From contig JARGFU010000010.1 in assembly GCA_029210625.1 (NCBI GenBank), positions 124,001 through 188,000 on the forward strand: 64,000 bases of DNA, read 5' to 3'. Below the pieces are notes generated by a model, which worked only from the letters and a program-made list of their open reading frames with translations, made no database searches and was not told the origin of the DNA. Shown here piece by piece: positions 23,104 through 37,777 of the stretch. Source of the stretch: Deltaproteobacteria bacterium (GTDB taxonomy: Bacteria; Myxococcota; Myxococcia; SLRQ01). The stretch's first letter is position 1; every line of letters begins with the position of its first letter. The position numbers were made by a program, and so were the translations under genes.

Positions 23104-24502
23104 GGCGACGCCGCGGGAGATCGGCATTTCGGTGCTGGTGGTCGAGGACGACGCGCGGATGCGCGACATCCTCACCCGTCACCTCGAGCGCCTCGGCTAC
23201 GCCGTGCAGGCCGCCGAGGACGCGGCCTCCGCCCTCGGCGTCCTGCGGGAGCTGCCCTTCGACGTGGTCCTCTCGGACGTGCGGATGCCGGGCATGGACG
23301 GCCACTCCCTGATGCAGGTGGTGCGGGAGAAGCACCCCGGCATCAAGGTGGTCCTGATGACCGCCTTCGGCACCGTGGACGCGGCGGTCGACGCCATGCA
23401 GGCCGGCGCCTACTCCTACGTCTGCAAGCCCTTCAAGGTGGAGGAGATCGCGGCGGTGCTGCGCAACGCGGCCCGCGAGATCTCGCTCACCCGCCAGGTC
23501 GAGCGCCTGCGGCGGATCCCGCGGGGGATGCTCTCCGCCGACAGCCTGGTGGGGATCTCGGAGTCGATGCGGGAGGTGCGGCGCTCGGTGCGCGAAGCGG
23601 CGGCCGTGACCTCCCCGGTGCTGATCACCGGCCGCTCGGGCACGGGCAAGGAGCTGGCCGCCCGGGCCATCCACAACGAGGGGCCCCGGCGCGAGGGGCC
23701 CTTCATGCCGGTGAACTGCGCGGCGATCCCCGAGACCCTCTTCGAGTCGGAGATGTTCGGGCACACCCGGGGGGCCTTCACCGGCGCTCGAGAGGATCGC
23801 CCGGGCCTCATCGAGCAGTCCAGCGGCGGCACCCTCTTCCTCGACGAGGCCGGCGAGATCCCCCTGCCGCAGCAGGCGAAGCTGCTGCGGGTCCTCGAGG
23901 AGGGGGTCGTGCGTCGCCTCGGCGCCTCCGAGTCGATCCCGGTGGACCTGCGGGTGGTCTGCGCGACCAACCGCAGCCTCGAGGCCATGATCCGCCAGGG
24001 GGAGTTCCGGGAGGACCTCTACTTCCGCCTCAACGTCCTGCAGGTGAAGATGCCCGAGCTCTCCACCCACCCCGAGGACATCCCGGCCCTCGCCGATCAC
24101 CTCCTCTCCCGGCTCGTGGACGAGACCGGGATCCACTGCCACGGCATCGAGCCGGTGGTGCACGAGCGGCTCGGTGCCCGCCGCTGGCCGGGGAACGTCC
24201 GGGAGCTGCGCAACACCATCGAGCGGGCGATGCTCAAGGCGCGGGGACGCCGGATCGCCGTGGAGGATCTCCCCGGGGATCTCCAGGGCGAGGGGCCCTC
24301 GGTCGACGAGGCCACCCCCGGTGCGCCCGGCGCCCTGCGCCCCCTCTCCGAGGTCGAGAAGGAGCACATCGACGCGGTGCTGCGAGCCTGCGACTGGAAC
24401 CGCTCGGCGGCCGCGAAGGTGCTCGGGATCGACCGCCGGACCCTCTTCTCGAAGATCCAGCGCTACGGGCTCATCGGCCCGAACCGGCAGGGCCGCGGCT
24501 AG
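23096..24502 (+). CDS. NtrC-family sigma-54-dependent response regulator
   Basis: 468 aa from GTG 23096. Receiver domain 10-125 with the phosphoacceptor D61 in VVLSDVRMPGMDG and Lys in VCKPFKV. AAA+ domain about 150-385: Walker A GRSGTGKE (179-186), sigma-54 contact loop GAFTGA (226-231), Walker B GGTLFLDEAGEIP and the RWPGNVREL region. Fis-type HTH at the C-terminus (NRSAAAKVLGIDRRTLFSKI). All motifs needed for activation of sigma-54 RNA polymerase are intact. The gene overlaps the kinase gene and is the last gene before a -24/-12 promoter that starts the respiratory operon 136 bp downstream, with a palindrome at a typical upstream activator distance. It is therefore the likely activator of that operon (inference). 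Confidence 0.93.
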   Translation: MSEATPREIGISVLVVEDDARMRDILTRHLERLGYAVQAAEDAASALGVLRELPFDVVLSDVRMPGMDGHSLMQVVREKHPGIKVVLMTAFGTVDAAVDAMQAGAYSYVCKPFKVEEIAAVLRNAAREISLTRQVERLRRIPRGMLSADSLVGISESMREVRRSVREAAAVTSPVLITGRSGTGKELAARAIHNEGPRREGPFMPVNCAAIPETLFESEMFGHTRGAFTGAREDRPGLIEQSSGGTLFLDEAGEIPLPQQAKLLRVLEEGVVRRLGASESIPVDLRVVCATNRSLEAMIRQGEFREDLYFRLNVLQVKMPELSTHPEDIPALADHLLSRLVDETGIHCHGIEPVVHERLGARRWPGNVRELRNTIERAMLKARGRRIAVEDLPGDLQGEGPSVDEATPGAPGALRPLSEVEKEHIDAVLRACDWNRSAAAKVLGIDRRTLFSKIQRYGLIGPNRQGRG

Positions 24503-24637: not shown

Positions 24638-24653
24638 TGGCCCGGGAGTTGCT
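24638..24653 (+). promoter_or_regulatory. Sigma-54 (-24/-12) promoter
   Basis: TGGCCCGGGAGTTGCT matches the consensus TGGCACRNNNNTTGCW at all but one defined base, and the GG-to-GC spacing is exactly 10 bp. The predicted start site is about 24663-24664, two or three bases before ATG 24666, so the message would be almost leaderless. Confidence 0.75.
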
Positions 24654-24665
24654 ACGCCCGCGCCC

Positions 24666-26459
24666 ATGGCCAACCTGCCCATCGAGATTCCGGGGCCCCG
24701 GTACTTCGAGAAGCTGATCTCCTGCCGCGAGGCGTGCCCGGTCCACACCGACGCCCGCGGCTACGTGCAGGCCGTGGCCCAGGGAGACTACGCCCTGGCC
24801 TACCGCATCGCGCGTGCCCCGAACCCCTTCGCCTCCATCTGCGGCCGGGTCTGCGGCGCGCCCTGCGAGGCCGCCTGCCGTCGCGGCGACATCGACGCGC
24901 CGGTCGCCATCCGGGCGATCAAGCGCACCACCACCGAGCGCCACGGCGTCGAGGTGGGGGGGGATCCGAAGGAGAGCCTGATCTTCTCCACCGCGCCGGG
25001 CTCCCTCGAGCCCGAGCAGCTTCCCCACAAGGTCGCCATCGTGGGCGCCGGCGTCGGCGGCCTGACCGCCGCCCACGACCTCGCCCGGGTCGGGGTGCAG
25101 TGCACGGTCTTCGAGGCCGGCGCCAAGCCCGGCGGGATGCTGCGCACCGGCGTGCCCATCTTCCGGCTTCCCGAGAAGGTCTGGAGCACCGAGATCGACG
25201 CCATCCTCTCCCTGGGGGTGGAGCTGAAGTGCAACACCCGGGTGGGCACCGACGTCACCCTCGAGGAGCTCAAGGCGCAGGGCTACGAGGCGGTGATCCT
25301 CGCCGTCGGACTGCAGAAGTCCCGGATGCTCGACCTGCCCGGCAAGGAGCTCGAGGGCATCATCCCGGGCCTGGAGATCCTCGAGGAGTTCAACGACCGC
25401 AAGCCGCGCGAGGGCCTCGGCCGGGTCGTGGTCATCGGTGGCGGCAACGTGGCCTACGACTGCGCCCGCTCCGCCATCCGGATGAAGGGGACCACCGAGG
25501 TCTCCATGGTCATCCTCGAGTCCCTCGAGGAGATGCCCGCCGACGAGATCGAGATCATCGAGGGCGACGAGGAGGGCATCGTCCGCCTGAACCGGCACGG
25601 TCCGGTCCGCTTCGTGGGCGAGGACGGGAAGGTCACCGGCCTCGAGACCCGCAAGGTCAGCCGGGTCTTCGACGAGGAGGGGCGCTTCGCCCCGGTGCTC
25701 GTCGACGGCTCCGAGGAGATCGTCCCCTGCGACACCATCATCGTCGCCATCGGCCAGGCCTCGGATACGGGCTTCGCCAACGGCGTGGAGGAGCTCGAGC
25801 TGGGCCGGGGCGGCGTCGTGGTGGCCGACCGGGAGACCGGCGCCACCTCGATCCCCTGGATCTACGCCGTCGGTGACGTGGCCCTCGGGCCCGGCCTCTT
25901 CATCAACGCGATCGCCCACGGGCAGAAGGCGGCGAAGCTCGTCTTCCGCCAGCTGGTCGGCGAGGAGAAGGCCGAGGAGATCCTGCGCCAGCCCAAGACC
26001 TTCGGCTTCCTGACCGAGAAGATCCGCGAGGGGCTGCGCCAGGACTACCTGCACCTGAACCGGGCGTTCCCGCCCGCGGCCGACCCCGGTGAGCGGCTCG
26101 GGCAGATGGATCTGCAGGTCGAGCACATGTACGACGACCGGGAGGCCCGGCTGCAGGGGTCGCGCTGCCTGCGCTGCGAGGTCGAGACGGTCTTCGACGG
26201 CGCCAAGTGCATCCTCTGTGGGGGCTGCGCCGACGTCTGTCCGACCTGGTGCCTGAAGCTGGTGGACACCGAGTCCATCGGCCTCGGTGACCAGTTCCCC
26301 GGCAAGTCCGCGATCATCAAGGACGAGGATCGCTGCATCCGCTGCGGCTACTGCGCCGAGCGTTGCCCCACCGACGCCATCACCATGGAGCGCCTGGTGG
26401 GCTTCGAGGAGTGGACCGATCAGCCGCTGGTCCAGCTCGGGAAGGTGCGGGGAGCCTGA
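24666..26459 (+). CDS. GltD-like FAD/NAD(P) oxidoreductase with C-terminal ferredoxin clusters
   Basis: 597 aa. N-terminal GltD-type Fe-S segment with Cys 20, 24, 59, 63, 67 and 71 (SCREACP, ICGRVCGAPCEAAC), FAD motif VAIVGAGVGG (123-132), NAD(P) motif VVVIGGGNVAYDCAR (about 258-272) and an AIGDVA-type FAD end (YAVGDVALG). The C-terminus adds a Cys-rich segment (CLRCEVE, CILCGGCADVCPTWC) and a second ferredoxin motif (CIRCGYCAERCP), about residues 500-570. Such GltD-like proteins move electrons between NAD(P)H and Fe-S carriers and are not necessarily glutamate synthase; no large GltB subunit is near. As the first gene of the operon it may link a soluble electron donor to the membrane complexes downstream (inference). 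The family N-terminus and lack of other Met make ATG 24666 the likely start; no Shine-Dalgarno is seen. Confidence 0.85.
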   Translation: MANLPIEIPGPRYFEKLISCREACPVHTDARGYVQAVAQGDYALAYRIARAPNPFASICGRVCGAPCEAACRRGDIDAPVAIRAIKRTTTERHGVEVGGDPKESLIFSTAPGSLEPEQLPHKVAIVGAGVGGLTAAHDLARVGVQCTVFEAGAKPGGMLRTGVPIFRLPEKVWSTEIDAILSLGVELKCNTRVGTDVTLEELKAQGYEAVILAVGLQKSRMLDLPGKELEGIIPGLEILEEFNDRKPREGLGRVVVIGGGNVAYDCARSAIRMKGTTEVSMVILESLEEMPADEIEIIEGDEEGIVRLNRHGPVRFVGEDGKVTGLETRKVSRVFDEEGRFAPVLVDGSEEIVPCDTIIVAIGQASDTGFANGVEELELGRGGVVVADRETGATSIPWIYAVGDVALGPGLFINAIAHGQKAAKLVFRQLVGEEKAEEILRQPKTFGFLTEKIREGLRQDYLHLNRAFPPAADPGERLGQMDLQVEHMYDDREARLQGSRCLRCEVETVFDGAKCILCGGCADVCPTWCLKLVDTESIGLGDQFPGKSAIIKDEDRCIRCGYCAERCPTDAITMERLVGFEEWTDQPLVQLGKVRGA

Positions 26460-26609
26460 ATGACGCTCATGACCCTGATCTTGCTCGCCAGCGCCGTCCT
26501 GATGGCGGCCGGCGCCGGGCTCATCTTCGCCTGGGCCGCCAGGAGCGGGCAGTTCGACGACATGGAAGAGGCCAAGTACCAGATGCTTCGCGAGGATACG
26601 CAAAAGTGA
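26460..26609 (+). CDS. ccoS: CcoS, cbb3 oxidase assembly protein
   Basis: 49 aa, a very short gene. The ATG directly follows the stop of the upstream gene (TGAATG). One membrane helix (about residues 4-26) is followed by the CcoS signature FAWAARSGQFDDME, then EEAKYQMLRED. CcoS is required for cofactor insertion during maturation of cbb3 oxidase. The stop overlaps the GTG of the Rieske gene (GTGA), so translation is coupled. In classical ccoGHIS clusters ccoS is the last gene; here it is near the front of the operon, before the bc-type subunits. Confidence 0.85.
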   Translation: MTLMTLILLASAVLMAAGAGLIFAWAARSGQFDDMEEAKYQMLREDTQK

Positions 26610-27097
26610 CCACGTCCAAGCTCAATCCCGAACGCTCCGGAGCCCAGCCCGAAGACCGGCGGAAGTTCATCGCCGTCGCCTCGGCCCTCGTCCTCGGCAT
26701 CGCCGGCGGCCTGATGGGGCTCTTCAACCTGATCTTCCTCCGCCCGCGGGTCACCTACGGCGCGCCCAGCAAGGTGCGGGTCGGCAAGCCCGAGAGCTAC
26801 TCCCCCGGCTCGACCATCGAGCTGCCGGCGGACAGCATCGTCGTGAAGCGCGAGGGCGACAGCTTCATGGCCATCAGCACGGTCTGCACCCACCTGGGCT
26901 GCACCGTGAAGGCCACGGAGATCGGCTTCGACTGCCCCTGCCACGGCAGCAGCTACGACTCCGAGGGGAACGTGGTCGCCGGCCCGGCGCCGAAGGCCCT
27001 CTCCTGGTACCGGATCTCCCTCACCCCCAACGGTGAGCTCGAGGTCGACAAGCAGCAGGTCGTGAAGGCCAACACCTACATGGAGCTGCCGTCATGA
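26606..27097 (+). CDS. qcrA: Rieske iron-sulfur protein of a cytochrome bc/b6f-type complex
   Basis: 163 aa from GTG 26606 (overlap with ccoS). It carries the 2Fe-2S high-potential cluster that takes electrons from quinol and passes them to cytochrome c. A single N-terminal helix (about 22-44) is preceded by RRKF, a Tat-like twin arginine context. Cluster-binding motifs are CTHLGC (94-99) and CPCHGSSYD (110-118), both complete. Frame continues upstream without a signal, so the GTG that overlaps the ccoS stop is chosen. Its stop overlaps the ATG of the cytochrome b gene (ATGA). Confidence 0.93.
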
Positions 27098-27915
27098 GTG
27101 TTCAGAACGTCCATGCCTCCGAGGCGCCCGACCGCTCCGGCGAGGGCAACCTCCTCAAGGTCCTCCCCGGGCGCCTCTGGCGCTCGATCTTCCGGACGCG
27201 GATCATCCCCACCAACGAGCTGGAGCGGTCGAAGTCGGTCTCCGACAACTTCTTCTTCCACATCCACTCCTCGAAGGTCACCGAGCACACCCTCAAGCCC
27301 ACCACCACCCTGGGGCTGGGGCTCTTCACGCTCTACACCTTCGTGATCCTGGTCATCACCGGCGTCCTGCTGATGTTCTACTACGTGCCGACGGTGGCCG
27401 AGGCCTACGACCGGATGCTCGATCTGCGGGGCGCCGTCTTCTTCGGCACCTTCCTGCGGAACCTGCACCGCTGGTCCGCCCACGCGATGGTCGCCCTCGC
27501 GGTGGCCCACATGGTGCGGGTCTACCTCACCGGGGCCCACAAGGCGCCGCGGGAGTTCAACTGGGTGGTGGGGGTCATCCTCCTGCTGCTCACCCTCTTC
27601 ATGTCCTTCACCGGCTACCTCCTGCCCTGGGACCAGCTGGCCTACTGGGCCATCGTGGTGGGCACGGCCATCGCAGGCTACGCGCCGCTCGTCGGTGACG
27701 AGATGCGCTACTTCCTCCTCGGCGACTTCGCGGTGGGTGGGGAGGCGCTGCTGCGCTTCTACGTCCTCCACGTCGTGGTGCTGCCGGCGGTGCTGACCAC
27801 CTTCATCGGGGTGCACTTCTGGCGCATCCGCAAGGACGGTGGCCTGGCTCGCCCGAAGCCGGCGCCCGCGTCGACCATCCCCACCCCGGTGCTGCCGGAT
27901 CAGGCGAAGGAGTAG
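27094..27915 (+). CDS. qcrB: Cytochrome b, N-terminal half (b6-type)
   Basis: 273 aa, the size of cytochrome b6 rather than full-length cytochrome b, so the protein is split as in b6f and some bacterial complexes. Four membrane helices lie at about 73-95, 125-150, 157-178 and 220-245. The haem ligands are H125 and H139 (spacing 14) in helix B and H226 and H241 (spacing 15) in helix D. The 15-residue spacing in helix D is the b6-type feature. [15 protein letters not shown] is the conserved quinol-site region. It would bind two b haems and form the quinol-oxidising core with the Rieske protein and the next gene product. Proline/alanine-rich C-terminal tail. Confidence 0.92.
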
Positions 27916-27918
27916 GTC

Positions 27919-28446
27919 ATGTCCGACCCCATCGAGAAGCCCGAGTTCGAGCGGTTCCCCCTGAAGCAGGGCAAGACCTACGGCCTGATGTGCGTGGTGG
28001 ACGCCAAGTCCGAGGCCACGCAGATCCCGACCGAGAAGCAGGTCCAGGCCTGGCCCAACGCGCTGATCCGCGAGGTCCTGCTCTTCGTCGTCACCCTGCT
28101 GGTGCTCTCCCTGGTGGCCATCCTCTTCGATGCGCCCCTGGAGGAGCCGGCCAACCCGCTGCATCCACCGAACCCCGCCAAGGCCCCCTGGTACTTCCTG
28201 GGTCTCCAGGAGCTCGTCAGCTACGACGCCTTCTGGGGTGGCATCGGCATCCCCGGGCTGCTGGTCGTCATGGCGATGGCCGCGCCCTACCTGGAGCGGA
28301 AGCCCGGAGGGGAGGGGGTCTGGTTCGCCCCCTCGCGCTCGGCGGCCAACTGGATCTTCATCATCATCATGGGCACCCTCGGCATCCTGACGATCATCGG
28401 GTCGCTCTTCCGGGGTGAGAACTGGGCCTTCGTGGTGCCCTGGTAG
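27919..28446 (+). CDS. Cytochrome b C-terminal half / subunit IV-like
   Basis: 175 aa. It starts 3 bp after the b6 stop. Three predicted helices (about 52-72, 102-122, 143-163) follow a hydrophilic N-terminus. The motif NPAKAPWYFLGLQELVSY matches the start of helix F in cytochrome b C-terminal domains and subunit IV, but the usual PEWY quinol-site motif is absent at the expected place. With the preceding gene it rebuilds a complete cytochrome b. The unusually long soluble N-terminus (about 45 residues) may contact the multihaem cytochrome encoded next (inference). Confidence 0.85.
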   Translation: MSDPIEKPEFERFPLKQGKTYGLMCVVDAKSEATQIPTEKQVQAWPNALIREVLLFVVTLLVLSLVAILFDAPLEEPANPLHPPNPAKAPWYFLGLQELVSYDAFWGGIGIPGLLVVMAMAAPYLERKPGGEGVWFAPSRSAANWIFIIIMGTLGILTIIGSLFRGENWAFVVPW

Positions 28447-28456
28447 GAGACGATCG

Positions 28457-30166
28457 ATGCGAATCAGGCTCATGCTCCTGGTGACCAGCCTGGCGATGAC
28501 CCTCGTCGTCGGCTTCGTCATCTTCAAGTCCACGTCCGAGGAGTGGCGGGACCACCAGCTGTCCTACTACGACCTGGCCATGGGGCGGGCTTCCACCGCC
28601 GCAACGAAGGAAGCCATCGCCAACGCTGGCCTCGAGATCAAGCAGGACACCCTCACCGCCTTCGGTGAGGAGACCCGGGTCGACCGGTGCCGCACCTGCC
28701 ACGCCGCTATCGACGATCCGAACTTCGCCGACGGGCAGAACCCGCTGAAGCAGCACCCGAAGATCCCGGAGCATTCCTTCAACGAGTTCGGTTGCACCAT
28801 CTGCCACGAGGGCAACGGGCGAGGTCTCTCCAAGTACTACGCCCACGGGGAGGACCACTTCTGGCCCGAGCCGCTGCTCACCGGCCCCTTCATCGAGGCC
28901 TCCTGCGCCCGCTGCCACCCCGAGCCCTACCTCGAGGAGATGCCCCACATCGCCCGGGGCCGGGAGCTCTTCAAGGAGTACGCCTGCGAGGGCTGCCACA
29001 CGATCCAGGGCTTCGCCCGCGGCAAGCTCGGGCCGGACCTCACCGAGGTCGGCGCCCACTTCAAGGTGGACTACCTGATCGAGTCGATCGCCGAGCCGGC
29101 AGCGAACATGCCGATGACGATCATGCCGAAGTTCCACATGAGCGAGCAGGAGCGCACCGATCTGGCGGTCTTCCTGAAGAGCCAGCGGGGCCGCACCCTG
29201 GTGGAGGATCCCATCACCCTGCGGATCACCACCCGCGAGTGGAAGGAGAAGAGCCCCACGCCGGTCGAGGTCTCGGTCGAGGTCGGCCAAGCCGCCTTCG
29301 AGAAGCGCGCCTGCATCGCCTGTCACAAGCTGGGCGAGCGGGACGGCAAGCTCGCTCCCGAGCTCGACTGGATCGGCCTGATCCGCGACGAAGCCTACAT
29401 CGCGAAGCACATCGAGAACCCGCGGGCCCACACCGGCGGCAGCAACATGCCGACCTTCTGGACCTCCAAGGAGGAGCGGCGGGCCATCGCCGCATTCCTG
29501 GCCACTCAGCAGACCATCGAGCTGCCGGAGAGCCCGGCCGAACAGTACGCGAAGCTCTGCTCCCGTTGTCACGGCAAGGAGGGGCACGCCGACGGCGTCA
29601 TCGCCAGCAACCTCCTGCCCCGGCCGCGCGAGTTCACCAACGCCAAGTTCTTCAACTGGCTCCCCGAGCAGCGGGCCCACAACGCCATCCGCAACGGCGT
29701 GCCGGGCACGGCCATGCCGGCCTTCGGCAAGATCCTCGACCAGCAGCAGGCCGAGGCCCTCTTCGCCTGGGTGCGGGAGAACTTCCTCAAGGCCGAGCGG
29801 GAGGAGTGGAACAAGCCCCGCAAGCTGCCGGAGAAGAAGGCCGTGGCCTACAGCGAGGAGAGCGTCGCCCGGGGAAAGAAGGTCTTCGCCATGCGCTGCT
29901 ACGGCTGTCACGGGCGGCGGGGCGACGGCAAGGGCCCCAACGCGCCCGACATGCTCCCCCGGCCGCGGGAGCTGACCTCCACCTCCTTCATGGGCCACGT
30001 CGACGACATGCGCCTCTTCGAGTCCATCACCTACGGCATCGTCGGCACCGGCATGCCGCCCTGGGACTACCTGCCCGAGAACCAGCGGTGGGACCTCGTG
30101 AACTTCATCCGTTCCATCTCCAACACGGCCGAGGCGTCCGGTGACGCTGGTCAGGGAGGCAGCTAG
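28457..30166 (+). CDS. Membrane-anchored seven-haem cytochrome c
   Basis: 569 aa. An in-frame ATG upstream exists, but ATG 28457 begins a single N-terminal hydrophobic anchor (about residues 5-24). Seven CXXCH motifs: 78-82, 113-117, 150-154, 177-181, 286-290, 368-372 and 481-485. The last four sit in cytochrome c-like folds; those at 368 and 481 are tandem copies sharing CHGxxG, LLPRPRE/MLPRPRE and a GxPGTAMPxF / GIVGTGMPPW axial-Met region. The first three haems form a separate N-terminal group. It lies between the cytochrome b and CcoN genes and may replace cytochrome c1 and CcoP, passing electrons from the Rieske protein to CcoO (inference). It follows the previous stop by 10 bp. Confidence 0.85.
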   Translation: MRIRLMLLVTSLAMTLVVGFVIFKSTSEEWRDHQLSYYDLAMGRASTAATKEAIANAGLEIKQDTLTAFGEETRVDRCRTCHAAIDDPNFADGQNPLKQHPKIPEHSFNEFGCTICHEGNGRGLSKYYAHGEDHFWPEPLLTGPFIEASCARCHPEPYLEEMPHIARGRELFKEYACEGCHTIQGFARGKLGPDLTEVGAHFKVDYLIESIAEPAANMPMTIMPKFHMSEQERTDLAVFLKSQRGRTLVEDPITLRITTREWKEKSPTPVEVSVEVGQAAFEKRACIACHKLGERDGKLAPELDWIGLIRDEAYIAKHIENPRAHTGGSNMPTFWTSKEERRAIAAFLATQQTIELPESPAEQYAKLCSRCHGKEGHADGVIASNLLPRPREFTNAKFFNWLPEQRAHNAIRNGVPGTAMPAFGKILDQQQAEALFAWVRENFLKAEREEWNKPRKLPEKKAVAYSEESVARGKKVFAMRCYGCHGRRGDGKGPNAPDMLPRPRELTSTSFMGHVDDMRLFESITYGIVGTGMPPWDYLPENQRWDLVNFIRSISNTAEASGDAGQGGS

Positions 30167-30168
30167 TC

Positions 30169-31569
30169 ATGTCCGATACGACCAAGAAGGGGGTCTGGAG
30201 CGAGCCCTCCGCCATGGGCTTCATCGTCAGCTCGGTGGTCTTCTTCGTGATCACCGTGCTGGTGGGCGTCCTGGTCTCCCTCAAGTTCATCTGGCCCGAG
30301 TTCATGGGCACCGCGCCCTGGCTGACCTTCGGCCGGATGCGCCCCCTCCACGTGAACGGCGTGCTCTTCGGCTGGCTGCTGGCGGCCGACATCGGCGTGC
30401 TCTTCTACATGGTGCCCCGGCTCTGCGGTAACAAGCTCTGGAGCGAGAAGCTCGGCCTGGCGACGCTCTTGCTCTTCGACCTGATCATCCTCGCCGCGGT
30501 CTTCACCACCCTCGGGGGCTACACCCAGGGCCTGGAGTACGCGGAGCTGCCCTTCGTGCTCGACGTAGGCGTGACCCTCGCCTGGGTGATGTTCGGGGTG
30601 AACATCTTCGCCACCATCGCCACCCGGAAGCACGAGAAGCTCTACGTGAGCCTCTGGTACACCATGGGCGCGGTCATCTGGACGGCCTTCGTCTGGATCA
30701 CGGGCAACTTCGCCACCGAGCTCTTCACGGGGATCAACCAGGCGAACCTCAACTGGTTCTTCGTCCACAACGCGGTGGGCCTGATCTTCACCCCGCTGGG
30801 CGTCGCCATCGCCTACTACTTCATCCCGAAGTCGGCGCAGGCGCCCCTCTACTCCCACAAGCTCTCGATGATCGGCTTCTGGAGCATCGCCTTCATCTAC
30901 GTCTGGACCGGCGCCCACCACATGATCCACGGGCCCATCAGCCAGTGGCTCCAGACGGTGGCGATCCTCTTCAGCGTCATGCTGATCATCCCGGTGTGGA
31001 CGGTGATCGTGAACTTCTTCGGCACCGTCGCCGGGCGGTGGGACGTCGTGAAGCAGGAGCCGATCCTCAAGTTCCTGATGACCGGCACCACCTTCTATCT
31101 GCTCACCTGCTTCCAGGGGCCGATGCACTCCCTGCGGACGGTGAGCGCCATCGTGAGCAAGACCGACTGGGTGGTCGGCCACGCCCACATGGCGGTGCTC
31201 GGGGCCTTCTCCTCCTTCGCGATGGCCGGCGTCCTCTTCGCCGTCCCGGAGATGGCGGGGCGGAAGCTGCACTCGAAGAAGCTGGCGAACCAGGCCTTCT
31301 GGCTCTTCCTCACCGGCGGCCTGATCTACTACGTCAGCCTCTGGGTGGGCGGCTTCATCCAGGGCCTGCAGTGGAACGACACGGCCATCCCCTTCATCGA
31401 CACCGTCAAGTCGATGCGGCCCTACTGGATCGCCCGCTCCTTCTCCGGGCTGCTGATCCTCACGGCGGTCGGGCTCTTCCTCTACAACATCGTCCGGACC
31501 CTGGGCCGCCAGGGAGACGGGGCCGCCGAGGCTCCCTCCGCCGACGTCACCCCGGCCGCGGCTTCCTGA
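30169..31569 (+). CDS. ccoN: cbb3-type cytochrome c oxidase subunit I
   Basis: 466 aa, the catalytic subunit reducing O2 to water with proton pumping. About 12 membrane helices. Conserved residues in the order seen in characterised CcoN: H61 (haem b ligand, RPLHVNG), H200 (CuB, FFVHNAVG), Y244 and H250/H251 (YVWTGAHH, the cross-linked Tyr/His and CuB site, six residues apart as in known cbb3 oxidases), and H338/H340 (GHAHMAV, haem ligands). Nothing essential is missing. It starts 2 bp after the seven-haem cytochrome stop. The high-affinity cbb3 type suggests respiration at low O2. C-terminal tail is Ala-rich. Confidence 0.96.
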   Translation: MSDTTKKGVWSEPSAMGFIVSSVVFFVITVLVGVLVSLKFIWPEFMGTAPWLTFGRMRPLHVNGVLFGWLLAADIGVLFYMVPRLCGNKLWSEKLGLATLLLFDLIILAAVFTTLGGYTQGLEYAELPFVLDVGVTLAWVMFGVNIFATIATRKHEKLYVSLWYTMGAVIWTAFVWITGNFATELFTGINQANLNWFFVHNAVGLIFTPLGVAIAYYFIPKSAQAPLYSHKLSMIGFWSIAFIYVWTGAHHMIHGPISQWLQTVAILFSVMLIIPVWTVIVNFFGTVAGRWDVVKQEPILKFLMTGTTFYLLTCFQGPMHSLRTVSAIVSKTDWVVGHAHMAVLGAFSSFAMAGVLFAVPEMAGRKLHSKKLANQAFWLFLTGGLIYYVSLWVGGFIQGLQWNDTAIPFIDTVKSMRPYWIARSFSGLLILTAVGLFLYNIVRTLGRQGDGAAEAPSADVTPAAAS

Positions 31570-31582
31570 AAGGAGAGAGGCA

Positions 31583-32128
31583 ATGCTCAAGAAAATGGAC
31601 ACGAGCGCGAGCGCCCTCTTCCTCGGGGCGCTGGTCTTCTTCCTCGTCGGTGGTCTCCTGACCACCGTCCTGCCCTGGCTCTCCGAGAAGTCCTGGGCGC
31701 AGCCGACCGCGCACCTGAAGGACTACACCGAGTCCGAGCAGCGCGGCCGGGACATCTACGTCCGGGAGGGGTGCTGGTACTGCCACACCCAGCAGATCCG
31801 CACCCTCGAGGCCGACACCGTCCGCTACGGCTGGCGCGGCGTGGACGCGCCGATCTCCGTTCCGGGCGAGTACACCCGAGACAAGCCTCACCTGCTGGGG
31901 ACCCGCCGGATCGGCCCCGACCTGGCCCGGGTGGGCGGGAAGTACGACAAGAGCTGGCACAAGACCCACTTCAACAACCCGCGAGATCTGGTGCCGGGCT
32001 CGGTCATGCCGCCCTTCCCCTGGATCGTGACCGACAATGGTGGCCAGGATCTGGATGACCTGGTCGCCTACATGCAGACCCTCGGTCGCGGCCAGGACTG
32101 GCGTCCGGACGACGACTACGAGCACTAG
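31583..32128 (+). CDS. ccoO: cbb3-type cytochrome c oxidase subunit II (monohaem)
   Basis: 181 aa, near the family size. One N-terminal membrane helix (about 10-32) and one haem site CWYCH (64-68) with the CcoO phrase GCWYCHTQQIR; Met142 in SVMPPFPW is the likely axial ligand. A strong Shine-Dalgarno (GGAGAGAGG) precedes the ATG. CcoO donates electrons to CcoN. Its normal partner, the dihaem CcoP, is not found here, so the seven-haem cytochrome upstream may feed it (inference). Confidence 0.95.
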   Translation: MLKKMDTSASALFLGALVFFLVGGLLTTVLPWLSEKSWAQPTAHLKDYTESEQRGRDIYVREGCWYCHTQQIRTLEADTVRYGWRGVDAPISVPGEYTRDKPHLLGTRRIGPDLARVGGKYDKSWHKTHFNNPRDLVPGSVMPPFPWIVTDNGGQDLDDLVAYMQTLGRGQDWRPDDDYEH

Positions 32129-32131
32129 GCC

Positions 32132-32323
32132 ATGATCTGGCAGAGCGAAGCGATCCTCTACGGGCTCATGATCACGAACGTGTTGGTCGTGGGCGCCGCC
32201 CTCGTCTGGGCCTGGCGCTCCGGTCACCTGCGCGATCTCGAGTCCGCCGGGGACGTGCTTTTCGAAGATCCGGCGCCATCTTCTACGCTTGGCGGCGCCG
32301 ACCACAGAGGAACGAAGTCATGA
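32132..32323 (+). CDS. Small membrane protein with CcoS-like motif
   Basis: 63 aa with one membrane helix (about 8-28). After the helix the sequence reads WRSGHLRDLE then VLFED, closely matching the RSGxxxDxE and LxED pattern of the CcoS encoded at 26460. It therefore looks like a second CcoS-like protein, located where ccoQ usually lies between ccoO and ccoP. Starts 3 bp after ccoO and its stop overlaps the next ATG (ATGA). It could be a CcoQ-position stabiliser or a diverged assembly factor. The homology to CcoS is by eye over about 25 residues. Confidence 0.6.
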   Translation: MIWQSEAILYGLMITNVLVVGAALVWAWRSGHLRDLESAGDVLFEDPAPSSTLGGADHRGTKS

Positions 32324-32532
32324 GCGAGAGCAAGAACGGTGCGCACGAGGAGCTCGCGGTCTACCCCAACGGCATCGAGGAGAAGCCGGGCGGGAACGTC
32401 CAGCTCTTCCTGAAGCTGACCTACATCGGGTTCGTCATCTTCGGGATCACCTACTTCATCCTGTACATGTCGGGGGACGGCAGCGAGCTGGTGCAGCAGT
32501 TGAATCAGGCCACCGGTCATGCCAGCCCCTGA
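32320..32532 (+). CDS. Small single-helix protein resembling the N-terminal domain of CcoP
   Basis: 70 aa. A soluble N-terminus with NGIEEKPGG is followed by one membrane helix (about 35-55). GIEE just before the helix recalls the DGIEEL-type motif of the FixP/CcoP N-terminal anchor, but there is no haem motif: the protein ends soon after the helix. It may be a stand-alone CcoP anchor whose haem domains were lost and whose role is taken by the seven-haem cytochrome; alternatively an unrelated subunit. Overlaps the previous gene by 4 bp and the ccoG gene by 14 bp. Confidence 0.5.
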   Translation: MSESKNGAHEELAVYPNGIEEKPGGNVQLFLKLTYIGFVIFGITYFILYMSGDGSELVQQLNQATGHASP

Positions 32533-33766
32533 TCCCCTCGCCGTACGCCCTCCCCGGGGAGGGCGCCTCCACACCCGGCGCCGGGCGCTGCAGCTCTTCA
32601 CCTCGCTCGCCCTGATCCTGGCGCCCTTCCTCGACCTCCTGCGCTTCGACCTCGAGGGCGGGCGGCTGATCCTCTTCCGTACCTCCTTCCACCTCAGCGA
32701 GATGGGGCCGATCTACGCCCTGCTCCTGCTCTGCATGCTGCTGATCTTCGCGGGGGCGCTGATCTACGGGCGGCTCTGGTGTGGCTGGATGTGCCCCCAG
32801 ACCACCCTCTCCGAGCTGGCGGCCACGATCGAGCGGGCCCTCCTCCTCGGGACCAAGCGCAGCCCGGGCCGCAAGGCCCTCTCCAAGGTGCTGATCCTGC
32901 TGGTCGCCGCCGGGGTGGCCACGAGCCTGATCTCCTACTTCGTGCCGCCCGCCCGCCTGATCGCGCCGACCCTGCCGGTCGCCGTCACCTGGGCGGTCTT
33001 CTTCGGCATCCTCGCCTTCGACCTGCTCTGGGTGCGCCACGACTTCTGCTTCAGCGTCTGCCCCTACGGCATCCTCCAGGGGGTGGTGCAGGACGAGCGC
33101 ACCCTGGGGGTCACCTTCGGCCGGGACCTCTCCGGCTACTGCGTGAGCTGCAAGGCGTGCGTGCGCTCCTGCTTCATGGGCATCGACATCCGCGAGTCGC
33201 CCTTCGATCCCCAGTGCCTCAACTGCGGGGACTGCGTGGACTCGATCAACGAGTCCCACGAGCGCCGCGGCATCCCCCTGATCACCGGCTTCGCCTACGG
33301 TCCGCAGACCTCGAGCTGGCCGCTCCCCTTGCTGGCGCTGGGCATCGTCGACTTCCGGCGGGTGGCGGTCGTCGTGCTCATCGCCGTGGTCGGGACCGTC
33401 TCGGCCTTCCTCCTCATGGGCCGGGCGCCCATCGACGGGACCATCTCGCCCCGCTTCGATCTGCAGGCCCTCGCCGACGGCCGGGTCGCGAACCACTACA
33501 ACGTCAGCGTCACCAACCACACCCCGGCCCAGGTGAAGGTGAAGGTCGCGGCCGGGGGGGTCCCCGGCCTGCGCGTGCTCCAGCCCACCAGCGCCGTGGA
33601 GATCCCCGCCGGGAAGCGCCAGCACCTCGAGCTGATCCTCGACGCGAGCTGCGCGGGCCTTGAGAGCGGCGCCCACCCGATCACGGTCGAGCTCGACGCC
33701 TCCCTCGCCGAGGGGCCCCAGGCGCTGCCGACCCGCTTCTTCATCCCCGGGAAGGACTGCTCATGA
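32519..33766 (+). CDS. ccoG: CcoG-like membrane ferredoxin, cbb3 maturation
   Basis: 415 aa. CcoG (RdxA/FixG) reduces copper during cbb3 assembly. Membrane helices at about 28-45, 65-85, 118-140, 155-175 and 280-300; the CGWMCPQ motif after helix 2 and CxxxCPYG follow the family. First ferredoxin site CVSCKACVRSC is complete. The second, CLNCGDCVDSIN, lacks the fourth Cys (Ile at the position expected three residues after the third Cys plus one), so that cluster may be [3Fe-4S]-like, use another ligand or be degenerate. A C-terminal Ig-like periplasmic domain follows (about 320-415). ATG overlaps the previous gene by 14 bp; stop overlaps the next ATG. Confidence 0.88.
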   Translation: MPAPDPLAVRPPRGGRLHTRRRALQLFTSLALILAPFLDLLRFDLEGGRLILFRTSFHLSEMGPIYALLLLCMLLIFAGALIYGRLWCGWMCPQTTLSELAATIERALLLGTKRSPGRKALSKVLILLVAAGVATSLISYFVPPARLIAPTLPVAVTWAVFFGILAFDLLWVRHDFCFSVCPYGILQGVVQDERTLGVTFGRDLSGYCVSCKACVRSCFMGIDIRESPFDPQCLNCGDCVDSINESHERRGIPLITGFAYGPQTSSWPLPLLALGIVDFRRVAVVVLIAVVGTVSAFLLMGRAPIDGTISPRFDLQALADGRVANHYNVSVTNHTPAQVKVKVAAGGVPGLRVLQPTSAVEIPAGKRQHLELILDASCAGLESGAHPITVELDASLAEGPQALPTRFFIPGKDCS

Positions 33767-33891
33767 AGCACCTCATCACCGGCATCATCGTCGTCTTCGT
33801 CGGCATCATGGCCACGGTCTGGATCGTCGCCGAGCGGACCGATCCCAAGATGCTCCCCCAGCCCACCAACTTCGCGGAGCCGCTGAAGTGA
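33763..33891 (+). CDS. Small 42-aa membrane protein in the cbb3 assembly cluster
   Basis: 42 aa, a very short gene. ATG overlaps the ccoG stop (ATGA) and its stop overlaps the GTG of the next gene (GTGA), so it is certainly placed for coupled translation. One membrane helix (about 4-24), then a short polar tail with DPKMLPQPTNF. It takes the position where ccoH stands in ccoGHIS clusters but is far too short to be CcoH. Function unknown; possibly a small subunit or assembly peptide. Confidence 0.65.
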   Translation: MKHLITGIIVVFVGIMATVWIVAERTDPKMLPQPTNFAEPLK

Positions 33892-34580
33892 CCCTCGCGT
33901 TGATGGTCGCTGCGGCCACCACCGGCCTCCTCGGCTCGCTCCACTGCGCGGGCATGTGCGGGCCCCTCGCCCTGGCCATCGGGACCGGCAGCGATCACCC
34001 CCTCGGCCGGCTGCTCCTCTTCGTCACCGGCAAGGCGGGAACCTACGCGATCCTCGGGACCATCGCCGGCCTCCTCGGCGCCGCCTTCGGCGCGGCCTCG
34101 AGCAAGACCGTCCTGGGGGAGAGCGGCCTGGCCTGGGTGGCCCTGGTCGCCGGCACCCTGATGATCGGCCTGGGGGTCCAGAACCTCTGGCGGCGGCTGG
34201 CGCCGAGGCCGGGCTCGAGGCCCTCGGCGATCAGCCTGCTCCTGGGCAAGGTCCTGCGCACCCGCAGCCCCTGGTCGCCGGTGGTGGCGGGCGCCCTCAC
34301 CGGCCTGCTGCCCTGCGGGCTGACCTGGGCCATGACCGCCCAGGCCCTCGCCGCGGGCTCGGCCCTCTCCGGCGCCCTGGTGATGGCCGCCTTCGGGGCG
34401 GGCACCGCGCCGGCGATGGTGGTCTCGGGGTGGCTGGGCAGCCGCCTCTCGGGGACCTCCCGGCGCCAGGGCGAGATCCTCGCGGCCAGCGCGGTGATCG
34501 CGATGGGCGCGGTGGCGATCTGGCGCGGCGTGATGATCTTGAGCGCCGATCCCGCCGCCGCGGCCTCCTGCTGTCACTAG
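33888..34580 (+). CDS. SafE/DsbD-like membrane protein, predicted metal-export or cbb3 assembly factor
   Basis: 230 aa from GTG 33888 (overlaps the previous stop). About six hydrophobic helices. N-terminal GLLGSLHCAGMCGPLALAI is the hallmark of the sulfite exporter TauE/SafE (DsbD-2) family, with a second conserved LTGLLPCGL in the middle. Family members are regularly encoded beside copper ATPases and cbb3 genes and have been proposed to move thiol reductant or metal. The Cys-rich C-terminus (ASCCH) is a possible metal-binding tail. ATG 33903 is an alternative start. Confidence 0.8.
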   Translation: MTLALMVAAATTGLLGSLHCAGMCGPLALAIGTGSDHPLGRLLLFVTGKAGTYAILGTIAGLLGAAFGAASSKTVLGESGLAWVALVAGTLMIGLGVQNLWRRLAPRPGSRPSAISLLLGKVLRTRSPWSPVVAGALTGLLPCGLTWAMTAQALAAGSALSGALVMAAFGAGTAPAMVVSGWLGSRLSGTSRRQGEILAASAVIAMGAVAIWRGVMILSADPAAAASCCH

Positions 34581-34601
34581 GTCGTCTGGTAGCCTCGCGC
34601 C

Positions 34602-36980
34602 GTGGAGAGCCAGGCCTGCACCCTCTGCGGCACCCCGACCCCCCGGCCCGAGGACGCCTTCTGCTGTGAGGGCTGCGCCCGGGTGGCCGAGATCCTCGAG
34701 AGCTCGGGCTACGCCGGGGACGTCCGGCAGGCGCCGGCCTTCCTCCAGGCCCAGCGCGCCGGGCTCATCCCCGTGGAGGGCAGCGCGGCGCCCGGGCGCG
34801 CCCCCGGCCCCGCGCTCGCGCTCGACGAGGCCCAGGCCCGGGAGTGCCCCCTCGAGATCGACGGGATGTGGTGCCCCTCCTGCGCCTGGCTCATCGAGCA
34901 CACCCTGCGGACCACGCCGGGAGTGATCAGCGCGGAGGTCTCCTTCCTCGCCGATCGGGCGGACATCCGCTTCGACCCGGCGCAGGTGGGCAAGGAGAGC
35001 CTCGAGGGTCGGGTGAAGGAGCTGGGCTACGCGGTGAAGGCTCTGGGCTCGGCCCGGGAGACCCGGGGCGCCTGGATCCGCTTCGGGATCTCGGCCGTCC
35101 TCTTCGCCAACGTGATGATGATCTCCTACGCCTACTACGGCTATCGCAGCAGCCCGGTGCCGGAGGTCGTCGCCTCGCTCCTGCCCTGGCTACTGGCGCT
35201 GCTGACCGCGCCGATCCTCTTCGGCGCCGGCTGGTCGATCCTGCGGCGGGGCGTGCTGGCCCTGCGCTTTCGCAGCGTCACCATGGACACCCTCATCACC
35301 GCGGCGGCGCTCTCGGCCTTCGCCTACAGCCTGCAGGCGGCCTGGGCCGGGACCAACGATCTCTACTTCGACGTCACCGCCGCCCTGGTTACCTTCTGGC
35401 TCCTGGGCCGGCTCATCGAGCAGAGCGCCTTTCGCAAGGCGGTGGAGACCACCGACGCCGTCCGCCGCCTCCTGCCCCGCAAGGCCCGCCGGCTGGAGGG
35501 CGGCGAGCCCCGCTGGGTGGACGTCGTCGAGCTGCAGCCGGGCGATCGTCTGCGGGTGGCGGCCGGGGAGCGGGTGCCGGTGGACGGACGCCTCCTCTCC
35601 GAGGAGGCGACGGTCAGCACCGCCATCGTCGACGGCGAGCCGCGCCCGCGGACGGTGCGGGCCGGGGACGCGATCCCCGGCGGGGCGACCGTGGGCGCCG
35701 CCGCCCTCGAGCTGGAGGTCGCCGCGGTGGCCGACGCCTCGATGCTCGCCCGCGTGGCGGACCACGTCGCCGCGGTGGCCGCCCGCACCGGCGAGGAGGC
35801 GACGATCACCGATGCGCTGGCGCGGGCGCTCCTGCCGGTGGTGATCGTCCTCTCGCTGTGCACGGGCGCCTACTGGATCACCCAGGGGGCCGAGTTCCCG
35901 GTCGCATTCGAGCGCGCCCTGGCGGTCCTCGTCGTCTCCTGTCCCTGCGCCCTGGCGGTGGCCGCGCCCCTGGCCCGGGTGGTGACCGCGACCTTTCTCG
36001 CCCGCCGGGGGGTGGTGGTGCGCGGGGAGGGCGCGGTGGACGCCGCTGGCCGGGCCCTCGAGGTGGCCTTCGACAAGACGGGCACCCTGACCCGGGGCGA
36101 GATGAGCGTGGCCGAGGTGCGCTGCGAGGGCATCGAGCGCGGGGCGCTCCTCCGCATCCTGGCCGCCCTGGAGGAGCGGGCCGGTCACCCCATCGCCTTC
36201 GCCATCTCCCGGGAGGTCGAGGGCGAGGCGCTCCCGGAGGTCGAGGGCGTCCGCGTCGAGGCCGGGCGGGGGGTGCGGGGGCGCCACGAGGGCGCCCTGC
36301 TCCTGGCCGGCAGGCCCGACTGGGTGGTGGAGGAGTCCTCGCCCGCGCCGCCGGCCCTCGCCGGGGCCATCGAGGCGGCGCGCGAGGCAGGGCGGCCGGC
36401 CATCGCCGTCGCCCGGGAGGGCCGGGTGATCGCCACCCTGGCCTTCGACGATCCGATCCGCGGGGAGGCGGCGGCGACCGTGGAGCGGCTCCACGCCCTC
36501 GGGCTGCACACGGCGGTGCTCTCCGGCGACGCCGGGCGGGCCGTGGCGGCGCTGGCCGCCGAGGTGGGGGTGGGGGAGGGCCACGGTGATCTGCTCCCCG
36601 AGGACAAGGCCGCCTGGCTCGAGGAGCGGCACGCGGCCACCGGCGAGCGGCCGATCTTCGTGGGAGACGGGGTCAACGACGCCCCTGCCCTCGCGGCCGG
36701 CGTCGGGGTGGCCGTGGCGGCCGGGACCGACTTCGCCCGGGAGACCGCCGCGGTGCTGCTCCTCGACGCCGACCTCGGCCGCCTGGTGGGCTTCGTCGAG
36801 GCCGCCCGCCGGATGCGGCGGATCATCAAGCAGAACCTCGCCTGGGCCTTCGCCTACAACGTGGTGGCCGTCGCCCTGGCGGCCTCCGGCAACCTCGATC
36901 CGGTGATCGCCGCCGGGGCCATGGTGAGCAGCAGCGTGCTGGTCACGATGAACTCCCTGCGCTTGCGCCGCCCGGCCTAG
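34602..36980 (+). CDS. ccoI: Copper-transporting P-type ATPase, cbb3 type
   Basis: 792 aa from GTG 34602. CcoI (FixI/CopA2) exports copper for insertion into the cbb3 CuB site. The N-terminus has a zinc-ribbon-like CTLC and FCCEGC (residues 6-25), then an HMA domain with MWCPSC (about 88-94). Eight membrane helices; the transport motif SCPCALA (about 446-452), phosphorylated Asp in DKTGTLT (about 491), GHPIAF-type ATP site (about 527), and GDGVNDAPAL hinge. All catalytic motifs intact. A TAGCCT hexamer precedes the start by 6 nt and no Shine-Dalgarno is seen, although the gene lies 21 bp after its neighbour. Its stop is shared in CTAG with the convergent ZIP gene. Confidence 0.93.
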   Translation: MESQACTLCGTPTPRPEDAFCCEGCARVAEILESSGYAGDVRQAPAFLQAQRAGLIPVEGSAAPGRAPGPALALDEAQARECPLEIDGMWCPSCAWLIEHTLRTTPGVISAEVSFLADRADIRFDPAQVGKESLEGRVKELGYAVKALGSARETRGAWIRFGISAVLFANVMMISYAYYGYRSSPVPEVVASLLPWLLALLTAPILFGAGWSILRRGVLALRFRSVTMDTLITAAALSAFAYSLQAAWAGTNDLYFDVTAALVTFWLLGRLIEQSAFRKAVETTDAVRRLLPRKARRLEGGEPRWVDVVELQPGDRLRVAAGERVPVDGRLLSEEATVSTAIVDGEPRPRTVRAGDAIPGGATVGAAALELEVAAVADASMLARVADHVAAVAARTGEEATITDALARALLPVVIVLSLCTGAYWITQGAEFPVAFERALAVLVVSCPCALAVAAPLARVVTATFLARRGVVVRGEGAVDAAGRALEVAFDKTGTLTRGEMSVAEVRCEGIERGALLRILAALEERAGHPIAFAISREVEGEALPEVEGVRVEAGRGVRGRHEGALLLAGRPDWVVEESSPAPPALAGAIEAAREAGRPAIAVAREGRVIATLAFDDPIRGEAAATVERLHALGLHTAVLSGDAGRAVAALAAEVGVGEGHGDLLPEDKAAWLEERHAATGERPIFVGDGVNDAPALAAGVGVAVAAGTDFARETAAVLLLDADLGRLVGFVEAARRMRRIIKQNLAWAFAYNVVAVALAASGNLDPVIAAGAMVSSSVLVTMNSLRLRRPA

Positions 36981-37777
36981 AGGAGCTGCAGGGTGATGGC
37001 CATGACGGCCATCCCCGCGATGAGCCCGTAGAGGCTCTCGTGTCCCTGGCCGTACTTCTTCGCGTTCGGGAGCATCTGGTCCAGGGAGATGAAGACCATC
37101 ACCCCGGCCACCCCGGAGTAGACCAGCCCCTGCAGGCTGTCCGAGAGGAAGGGGGCGAGCAGCGCCCAGCCCAGGAGGGCGCCGATGGGCTCCGAGATCC
37201 CCGAGAGGAAGGAGAAGATGAAGGCCTTGCGCTTGCTCCCGGTGGCGTAGAGCACGGGCACGGAGATCGAGATGCCCTCGGGGATGTTGTGGAGGGCCAC
37301 GGCGATCGCGATGGAGACGCCCACCGCGGGATCGTTCACGGCCGCGAAGAAGGTGGAGATCCCCTCCGGGAAGTTGTGGACGCCCACCGCCAGCGCGGTG
37401 AAGAGCCCGAGGCGCTCGAGGTGCTTGCCGTCGCCCGCCGGGAGCTCCACGTCCTCGAGGAGGACCGCGTCGTGGGGGTTCTCGTAGGAGGGCACCAGGA
37501 GGTCGATGGCGAAGATGAGGAGGATGCCCACGAAGAAGGCGATCATGCTCCACCAGCCGCTGGCGCTCTCGCCGAGGTCGCCGATGAGCAGCTCTCGCCC
37601 GCCGGGCAGCATCTCCACGAAGGCGATGTAGATCATCACGCCCGCCGAGAAGCCCAGGGTCGCCGAGAGGAAGCCGGGGTGGCTGCGCTTGCCGAAGAAG
37701 GCGATGGTCGAGCCGATACCCGTGGAGAGTCCGGCGAGGAGCGTCAGCCCAAGTGCGAGTAGAATCCTGTTGTCCAT
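36977..37777 (-). CDS. zupT: ZIP-family divalent metal transporter (ZupT-like)
   Basis: 266 aa, about eight helices, the size of ZupT. Metal-site helices: VGVHNFPEGIST (helix 4) and VALHNIPEGISI (helix 5), the paired HNxPEG motifs of ZIP proteins that import zinc or iron. An acidic cytoplasmic loop (about residues 100-120) lies between helices 3 and 4. The gene is convergent with ccoI and the two stops share CTAG. It is separate from the respiratory operon; the metal it moves is not decided by sequence. Confidence 0.92.
   Translation of the reverse strand: MDNRILLALGLTLLAGLSTGIGSTIAFFGKRSHPGFLSATLGFSAGVMIYIAFVEMLPGGRELLIGDLGESASGWWSMIAFFVGILLIFAIDLLVPSYENPHDAVLLEDVELPAGDGKHLERLGLFTALAVGVHNFPEGISTFFAAVNDPAVGVSIAIAVALHNIPEGISISVPVLYATGSKRKAFIFSFLSGISEPIGALLGWALLAPFLSDSLQGLVYSGVAGVMVFISLDQMLPNAKKYGQGHESLYGLIAGMAVMAITLQLL

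Follow-up and report, generated by a model that had tools for sequence, protein, structure and literature searches.

A stretch of 64,000 nucleotides from a Deltaproteobacteria bacterium of the phylum Myxococcota (contig JARGFU010000010.1, positions 124,001 to 188,000; hereafter the window) carries a cluster of 14 genes in which a Rieske/cytochrome b module, a cytochrome c with seven haem-binding motifs (the heptahaem cytochrome), the oxidase subunits CcoN and CcoO and a GltD-like flavoprotein, here called FdGltD, are encoded together (Table 1). All 14 genes lie on the plus strand, adjacent or overlapping, and span positions 24666-36980 in the translation of the window, with intergenic distances of -14 to +21 bases given the start codons chosen. 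Together with the naming of the genes by Pfam and NCBIfam model searches of the window proteins, this arrangement bears out an original prediction, made from the letters alone, which had listed the same 14 genes and placed them, many overlapping or fewer than 15 bp apart, in a single operon. It had also proposed a fused quinol:O2 unit wired by the multihaem protein; the comparisons reported below support such a unit, with a predicted electron path, and we consider it fairly probable that two known machines are combined here into a single dedicated menaquinol:O2 oxidoreductase, with the heptahaem cytochrome as the wire. The cbb3-type maturation genes CcoG, CcoI and CcoS are present in the cluster; CcoH, which had been called unrecognisable, was likewise not recognised among the window proteins scanned, in a survey that included no dedicated FixH search.

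Table 1. Genes of the cluster and its immediate neighbours, in window positions
Feature	Position	Strand	Basis
PAS/HisKA sensor kinase	ORF (open reading frame) 21022..23103, true start uncertain	+	Pfam PAS, HisKA, HATPase_c on 21166-23103
NtrC-type sigma-54 response regulator	23096..24502	+	Pfam Response_reg, Sigma54_activat, HTH_8
FdGltD, GltD/NfnB-like FAD/NAD(P) protein	24666..26459	+	Fer4_20 N-terminal, Pyr_redox_2, Fer4; C-terminal 2[4Fe-4S]
CcoS (copper insertion/maturation)	26460..26609	+	FixS 1.1e-12
Rieske protein	26606..27097	+	PF00355 6e-13
b6-type cytochrome b	27094..27915	+	PF00033 (Cytochrome_B) 1.5e-41
Subunit IV-like half of cytochrome b	27919..28446	+	PF00032 (Cytochrom_B_C) 3e-4; ExtQ model 2e-24
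Heptahaem cytochrome c, N-terminal membrane anchor	28457..30166	+	seven CXXCH motifs
CcoN, catalytic subunit, C-family haem-copper oxidase	30169..31569	+	COX1 1e-89
CcoO, mono-haem	31583..32128	+	FixO 2e-46; one CXXCH
Second CcoS/CcoQ-like small membrane protein	32132..32323	+	FixS 0.0016, under curated cut-off
70-residue membrane protein, possible haem-free CcoP anchor (PN-like)	32320..32532	+	FixP_N 0.1, under cut-off
CcoG	32519..33766	+	FixG_C 7e-11; CcoG model 3e-50
42-residue single-span membrane protein	33763..33891	+	no Pfam/NCBIfam family match
SafE-like DsbD_2 membrane protein	33888..34580	+	PF13386 1.4e-41
CcoI copper P-type ATPase	34602..36980	+	HMA, E1-E2 ATPase, heavy-metal ATPase models; name CcoI from cluster position
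ZIP metal transporter	36977-37777	convergent	4-base overlap with ccoI end; closes unit

The cluster, or fragments of it, is present in 34 genomes from four phyla, namely 27 Acidobacteriota, three Planctomycetota, one genome of the small phylum of locus L039, the window's own genome, a second Myxococcota genome (G048) and the genome of locus L042. Within Myxococcota, 99 of 195 genomes hold a CcoN match at E<=1e-60, and the only close match (75%; next best 43%) lies in G048, on contig JACRMN010000012.1. In G048 the cluster is complete, kinase and NtrC genes included, and an ordinary cbb3 operon follows it; the SafE-like gene was not matched there. The recurrence of the gene order in Myxococcota, for which the original prediction had suggested a search, was found in one other genome among the 195 searched. 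Elsewhere, CcoN of the cluster type is encoded in 27 of 396 sampled Acidobacteriota genomes (about 7%), in three of 343 Planctomycetota genomes, where one match has an internal stop, and in one of eight genomes of L039's phylum. A separate scan of species genomes with two heptahaem peptide patterns, which is no measure of distribution, returned eight loci: two new close ones (L039 and L040, the latter from a Planctomycetota metagenome-assembled genome), the G048 contig again (L041), two from Acidobacteriota (L042 and L043, far fewer than the CcoN search gave) and three distant loci of another type. The contigs of L042 and L139 hold cluster fragments only.

Gene order is conserved as well. The succession CcoS-Rieske-b6-subunit IV-cytochrome-CcoN-CcoO is found in every one of the 26 Acidobacteriota loci retrieved by their position (L064-L089) and also in L034, L039, L040 and L043, and since it recurs in other annotated loci it is not a matter of chance. 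CcoG and CcoI are both present in 24 of these 26 Acidobacteriota loci and both absent from the other two; L040 is without CcoI. FdGltD is encoded in 26/26 Acidobacteriota loci and in all 31 clusters annotated in full. It follows the small proteins in 25 of the 26 and in L043, and precedes CcoS in the window, L034, L039, L040 and L089, a varying position which indicates that the gene stays in the cluster through rearrangement. The b6 and subunit IV parts occupy one frame of 440-450 residues in L040 and L043, cytochrome b frames reach at least 406 residues in all other Acidobacteriota loci except L089, and the two parts are separate genes in L089, L034, L039 and the window.

All 30 unsplit heptahaem proteins counted (the window and 29 relatives) keep the seven CXXCH motifs, and in the same number the non-motif histidines 99, 105, 129 and 317 and methionines 222, 330, 419 and 532 are invariant (numbered from 28460). 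From these residues we infer three putative bis-His and four putative His/Met haems; which residue serves which haem is assigned provisionally. The cytochrome of L089 (genome G260) is divided between two genes: a five-haem ORF after subunit IV, which matches residues 18-354 of the window protein, and a two-haem ORF just before CcoN, which matches residues 363-551, with a SafE-like gene sitting between them. The 31 CcoN sequences of the cluster form one clade against 32 others (support 0.997), and when the tree is rooted on solved cbb3 CcoN, L089 branches first in that clade (support 0.961 for the other 30). Because this first-branching locus keeps the five-haem and two-haem genes apart, the heptahaem cytochrome is best read, and most simply so, as a five-haem cytochrome of the bc side fused once to a dihaem cytochrome of the oxidase side; haems 1-5 would accordingly be assigned to the bc side and haems 6-7 to the oxidase side.

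The heptahaem cytochrome and the cluster-type oxidase occur together without exception in the Acidobacteriota sample. With up to three candidates scored per genome, strong heptahaem matches (E<=1.4e-81; next best 1.4e-40) were obtained in 27 of the 396 genomes, exactly the 27 with cluster-type CcoN, on the same contigs and close to it; 26 are full length and one, that of G260, is the five-haem half of the split form. Trees of seven genes (Rieske, b6, heptahaem, CcoN, CcoO, FdGltD and CcoG) each recover a group of the window, G048, L039 and L040 with support of 0.95 to 1.0, and since this group of three phyla appears in all seven, the cluster was probably transferred between phyla as a whole. 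Pairwise distances of CcoN and the heptahaem cytochrome are correlated at r=0.97 (435 pairs), within a range of 0.85-0.97 for CcoN against the other six genes.

An explanation by shared regulation alone, in which an ordinary Rieske/b complex would feed CcoNO through a diffusible cytochrome c and the heptahaem protein would merely substitute for cytochrome c1 or f, fits these observations poorly. Strong heptahaem matches never occur without cluster CcoN in the 396 genomes, the L089 gene for haems 6-7 stands directly before CcoN, and FixP_N, the anchor domain of CcoP, scores under cut-off in 29 of 32 cluster genomes. In addition, 18 further Acidobacteriota genomes make up a second tier of heptahaem matches (E 1e-40 to 1e-30) with 19 places, which include a second match in G203; in their best matches these places align only with the five-haem half, roughly residues 1-394 of 591. 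On the other side, complex III and IV superoperons have been reported in Acidobacteriota (PMC8407424) and the cbb3 oxidase of Acidobacterium capsulatum is drawn as cytochrome c-fed (PMC11636273), both in the passages available from these sources; moreover, the haem 6-7 region also finds weak local matches in multihaem cytochromes from Rieske/b loci that stand alone, so this end is not unique as a module. On balance, shared regulation alone is regarded as unlikely.

In the bc half, the Rieske motif CTHLGC, the subunit IV Qo motif KAPWYF and b6 histidines 125, 139, 226 and 241 are present in 31/31 clusters, and the H226-H241 spacing of 14 is b6-type under the haem-histidine spacing rule for b6 and b. 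No cytochrome c1 or f is encoded between subunit IV and CcoN, where the heptahaem gene is the only one. No cysteine near helix A, as for haem c_i/c_N, is conserved in the cluster b6, and the window b6 contains no cysteine; L044, from Nitrospinota, has one near helix A. Among NCBIfam models, b6 and subunit IV fit best to those of the Ext cytochrome bc genes (ExtP, ExtQ, ExtS) of a selenite/tellurite reduction operon, at 255 of 290 and 86 of 150 bits, under the curated cut-offs. The best solved matches of the Rieske protein are structures 9rk4 and 9rk3, whose depositor names would fit anammox proteins, and those of FdGltD are NfnABC-type 9bov/9bp5 and 9n5u; 16 cysteines of FdGltD are conserved in at least 30 of 31 homologues. 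Histidines 56 and 58 of b6, examined as possible N-terminal ligands of the extra haem b proposed for anammox-type complexes, are invariant in 31/31, but they also occur in L044 and in a complex on contig C7 of the window's own genome, both without an FdGltD match nearby, and this HxH motif was rejected as a mark of an NAD(P) subunit for want of specificity.

The second-tier loci show where FdGltD belongs. Twelve of the 19 places were fetched (L140-L151; stretches of 5 to 18 kb each), and all 12 hold Rieske-b6-subunit IV-multihaem with no CcoN or CcoO in the stretch; the multihaem protein has eight CXXCH motifs in 11 and six in one (L148), and FdGltD stands next to Rieske in full in nine, partially at a contig end in one, and is not matched in two. 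An FdGltD-Rieske-b6-multihaem module without oxidase genes nearby thus exists. Because FdGltD adjoins Rieske in most of these stretches, it is assigned by its gene neighbourhood to the bc half; the merged cluster, in turn, has the look of such a module welded to CcoNO. These 12 loci resemble, by analogy, the Rieske/b-NAD(P) complexes of anammox bacteria, which combine Rieske, a b6-like b, subunit IV, a hexa- or octahaem cytochrome c and an NAD(P) oxidoreductase (PMC12954380, available in part); the last is NfnABC-like in structure with four FeS clusters, and bifurcation to NAD(P)+ is supported for it in the same source. Two more Rieske/cytochrome b/multihaem clusters were seen in the window's own genome, at C7:216988-219555 and C42:6837-11306 (in L135 and L136), with seven and eight CXXCH motifs respectively and no FdGltD or oxidase matches nearby.

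The original prediction had made the GltD-like protein an entry point for electrons, and this has become only one of two options. Nfn/GltD-type flavoproteins react with NAD(P)H, and FdGltD is constant in the fully annotated clusters, so that an NAD(P)H:O2 chain delivering electrons into the b haems or menaquinone, itself compatible with a heptahaem wire, is possible but tentative. Against that direction, NADH entry is probably already served with better energy yield, as PF00346 (the complex I 49-kDa subunit, a family that may also catch hydrogenase relatives) is found in 32/32 cluster genomes, and the authors of PMC12954380, in the part available, argue against it in the anammox analogues. On this count a second NADH entry is not needed, which favours, not decisively, an exit to NAD(P)+, and exit by electron bifurcation is judged about as likely as entry. 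In its fullest form this would be an O2-powered quinol bifurcator, one menaquinol electron passing through Rieske, heptahaem and cbb3 to O2, a steep drop that would drive the other uphill by way of the b haems and the FdGltD FeS clusters to NAD(P)+, a proposal that we likewise put forward only with reserve. If it holds, the quinol pool would serve aerobes as a source of NAD(P)H with no need to run complex I in reverse.

On the oxidase side, six haem/CuB histidines and the cross-linked helix-VII tyrosine are invariant in 31/31 cluster CcoN, with residue roles that we take to be those of the Pseudomonas stutzeri structure; since the catalytic histidines and tyrosine are intact throughout, cluster CcoN should reduce O2. 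CcoO carries one CXXCH in the window and in all 30 relatives counted. The ccoN equivalog model has a cut-off of 583 bits, of which CcoN reaches 348. A Glu-to-Gln change at CcoN 316 was rejected as a cluster-specific mark, since the majority of ordinary own-phylum cbb3 enzymes have it too, with 22 Q and 10 E among the 32 comparison sequences. The window's genome also holds an aa3 oxidase, beside genes read by eye as alternative complex III, and on contig C4 an oxidase-family protein, matched by Pfam COX1 only, that is read as a quinol NO reductase. The latter counts against a role of the cluster in oxygen scavenging or NO detoxification in place of energy-conserving respiration, as does the complete quinol-oxidising Rieske/b half, which would conserve energy. 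Such a role draws on the ability of cbb3 enzymes to reduce NO. It draws further on cbb3 transcripts of two strains that were low and falling or undetected at low O2, unlike those of a microaerobic respiratory enzyme, in the passages available of PMC8407424; we consider it quite improbable.

Whether a CcoP is associated with the cluster was assessed through its anchor domain. The window's own genome, which is 98% complete, has no FixP_N match at E<=1, in a search that did not extend to the CcoP haem domains genome-wide, and in a control 83 of 189 own-phylum genomes passed the cut-off. Across the cluster genomes FixP_N exceeds the cut-off in three of 32 and reaches E<=0.1 in nine of 32, never over cut-off inside the cluster, so that, as far as FixP_N tells, a ccoP elsewhere that always accompanies the operon was not borne out. 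The G048 match lies inside the neighbouring ordinary cbb3 operon; the G196 match is on another contig, at a distance of about 7 kb from a second oxidase. In G260 (L094) FixP_N forms the end of a haem-free 92-residue protein whose gene adjoins one for a CcoO-cytochrome c, which seems to be another way in which CcoP has been reduced. No haem-bearing CcoP with a FixP_N anchor was found in the cluster, as judged through the anchor domain. The description of the operon as CcoP-less accordingly holds for the haem part of CcoP, as far as tested through FixP_N, but the anchor may persist.

The candidate for such a remnant is the 70-residue membrane protein, which by its sequence may be a haem-free CcoP anchor. 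A homologue was extracted in 29 of 30 other loci, its members from the window, L034, L039 and L040 rank 1, 3, 4 and 10 of 3148 small ORFs against a CcoP-anchor profile, and the profile comparison beats 200/200 column shuffles. A precedent for a haem-free anchor is found in nine readable ordinary cbb3 operons of family f3 (L007, L009, L011, L013, L016, L017, L019, L021 and L022), from genomes that we take for Anaeromyxobacter relatives: at the FixP_N match stands a haem-free protein of 65-106 residues, over the cut-off in six of the nine, and CcoO there has a second haem domain, so CcoP seems to be split between two genes. As a proven CcoP, the 70-residue protein was not accepted, given weak profile statistics and the lack of a CcoP chain among its PDB profile matches.

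We infer from these comparisons the physical assembly, electron path, haem ligation, menaquinol substrate and FdGltD electron direction of the following model. Rieske, b6 and subunit IV would oxidise menaquinol at the Qo site, and the high-potential electron would pass from Rieske into the heptahaem cytochrome, first along its three bis-His haems and next along its four His/Met haems, and on to CcoO and the haem-copper centre of CcoN, where O2 would be reduced. Haems 1-5 would replace cytochrome c1/f and haems 6-7 the haem domains of CcoP; with both roles covered, neither a soluble cytochrome c nor a haem-bearing CcoP would be needed; next to CcoN, a small CcoP-like anchor without haem has probably been kept. 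FdGltD would lie on the cytoplasmic side of the b half, like its counterpart in anammox Rieske/b complexes, and exchange low-potential electrons with NAD(P). Given the synteny across phyla, the exact co-occurrence and the form split into five-haem and two-haem genes, this wiring is likely.

Several points weigh against it. The assembly is predicted from sequence comparison; correlated distances are expected for any co-inherited genes and are no proof of contact, co-inheritance and fusion speak for functional linkage rather than contact, and a soluble cytochrome c could still mediate. The dihaem end is closer to Kuenenia Kustc0457 than to CcoP: residues 354-554 match Kustc0457 (6h5l_B) at 8e-21, and solved cbb3 CcoP chains match at 5e-5 to 6e-3. 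The AlphaFold model of the heptahaem cytochrome, built from six sequences as input, has a mean pLDDT (predicted local distance difference test) of only 58; a PDB search with this low-confidence model returned mainly Kustc0457 (Foldseek 1.5e-9), with weak fold matches (E 0.006-0.03) to the cytochrome c subunit of actinobacterial bcc-aa3. Diverged anchors can escape FixP_N, the domain through which the genome-wide search for CcoP was made. As for the 70-residue protein, many Acidobacteriota members rank much lower against the anchor profile, down to 1705 of 1904 reported, its hhalign comparison gives E 0.008 and a probability of 5% with a reversed control at 15.9 against 18.1, and no CcoP chain appears among its PDB profile matches, with Pfam under cut-off.

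Among known systems, actinobacterial bcc-aa3 (III-IV) is like the cluster in that a multihaem cytochrome replaces c1 and soluble cytochrome c, and unlike it in that the cluster has a C-family oxidase, a b6-type b, seven haems and FdGltD. Like cbb3 (CcoNOQP), the cluster has the CcoN catalytic residues, CcoO, CcoG, CcoI and CcoS; unlike it, no haem-bearing CcoP is recognisable and CcoN is a clade of its own. With the anammox complexes Kuste4569-4574 and Kustd1480-1485, as far as described in PMC12954380, it shares a b6-like b, subunit IV, Rieske, a multihaem cytochrome c in place of cytochrome f and an NfnABC-like FAD/FeS NAD(P) oxidoreductase, a subunit encoded with Rieske, b6 and multihaem in 31/31 clusters; the Kuenenia b and NAD(P) subunits were compared by description, not sequence. 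In contrast to the anammox complexes, the multihaem protein of the cluster has seven haems and a terminal dihaem linked to a cbb3 oxidase; the cytochrome b of the window is without cysteine and so without haem c_N, and there is no hydroxylamine oxidoreductase (HAO)-like protein.

In the literature, the available passages of PMC8407424 describe cbb3 operons of Terriglobus roseus KBS 63 and A. capsulatum 161 with CcoN, CcoO and one cco gene of unknown function and with no CcoP named; these are probably the same cluster, and the passages contain no description of a merged bc/heptahaem/NAD(P) module. An octahaem Rieske/b operon is common to Nitrospina, Kuenenia and Methylomirabilis in the passages of PMC3578206, and one acidobacterial metagenome-assembled genome is stated, like other Acidobacteriota, to be without a cbb3 oxidase in those of PMC10564751. 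The passages available of PMC13253579, PMC8862662, PMC10654088, PMC6018796, PMC10564751 and PMC9386147 are without this unit. No description of a heptahaem bc-cbb3 unit was found in open-licence papers, and the cluster is a conserved respiratory unit with no description found in that literature.

Directly upstream of the 14 genes lie a sensor kinase and an NtrC-type regulator. The kinase has a 50% identical relative at the equivalent place upstream of the G048 cluster and the regulator a 64% identical counterpart there, and the latter is likely to be the regulator of the cluster. Counterparts of the 42-residue protein were seen after CcoG in L034, L039 and L040 by tblastn, and in several clusters the protein ends in a tail like K-A-N-P-x-M.

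If the proposed reading is true, a respiratory supercomplex is encoded in one operon, and a single protein takes over from cytochrome c1, from soluble cytochrome c and from the haem domains of CcoP, in a unit found in three phyla besides about 7% of sampled Acidobacteriota (27/396). Should the cluster be present in the strains of PMC8407424, this would suggest a reason why their cbb3 genes behaved differently from those of a microaerobic respiratory oxidase. Furthermore, the cluster would extend to aerobes the concept, known from anammox, of a Rieske/b-NAD(P) complex that bifurcates electrons, and some of these aerobes are possibly culturable.

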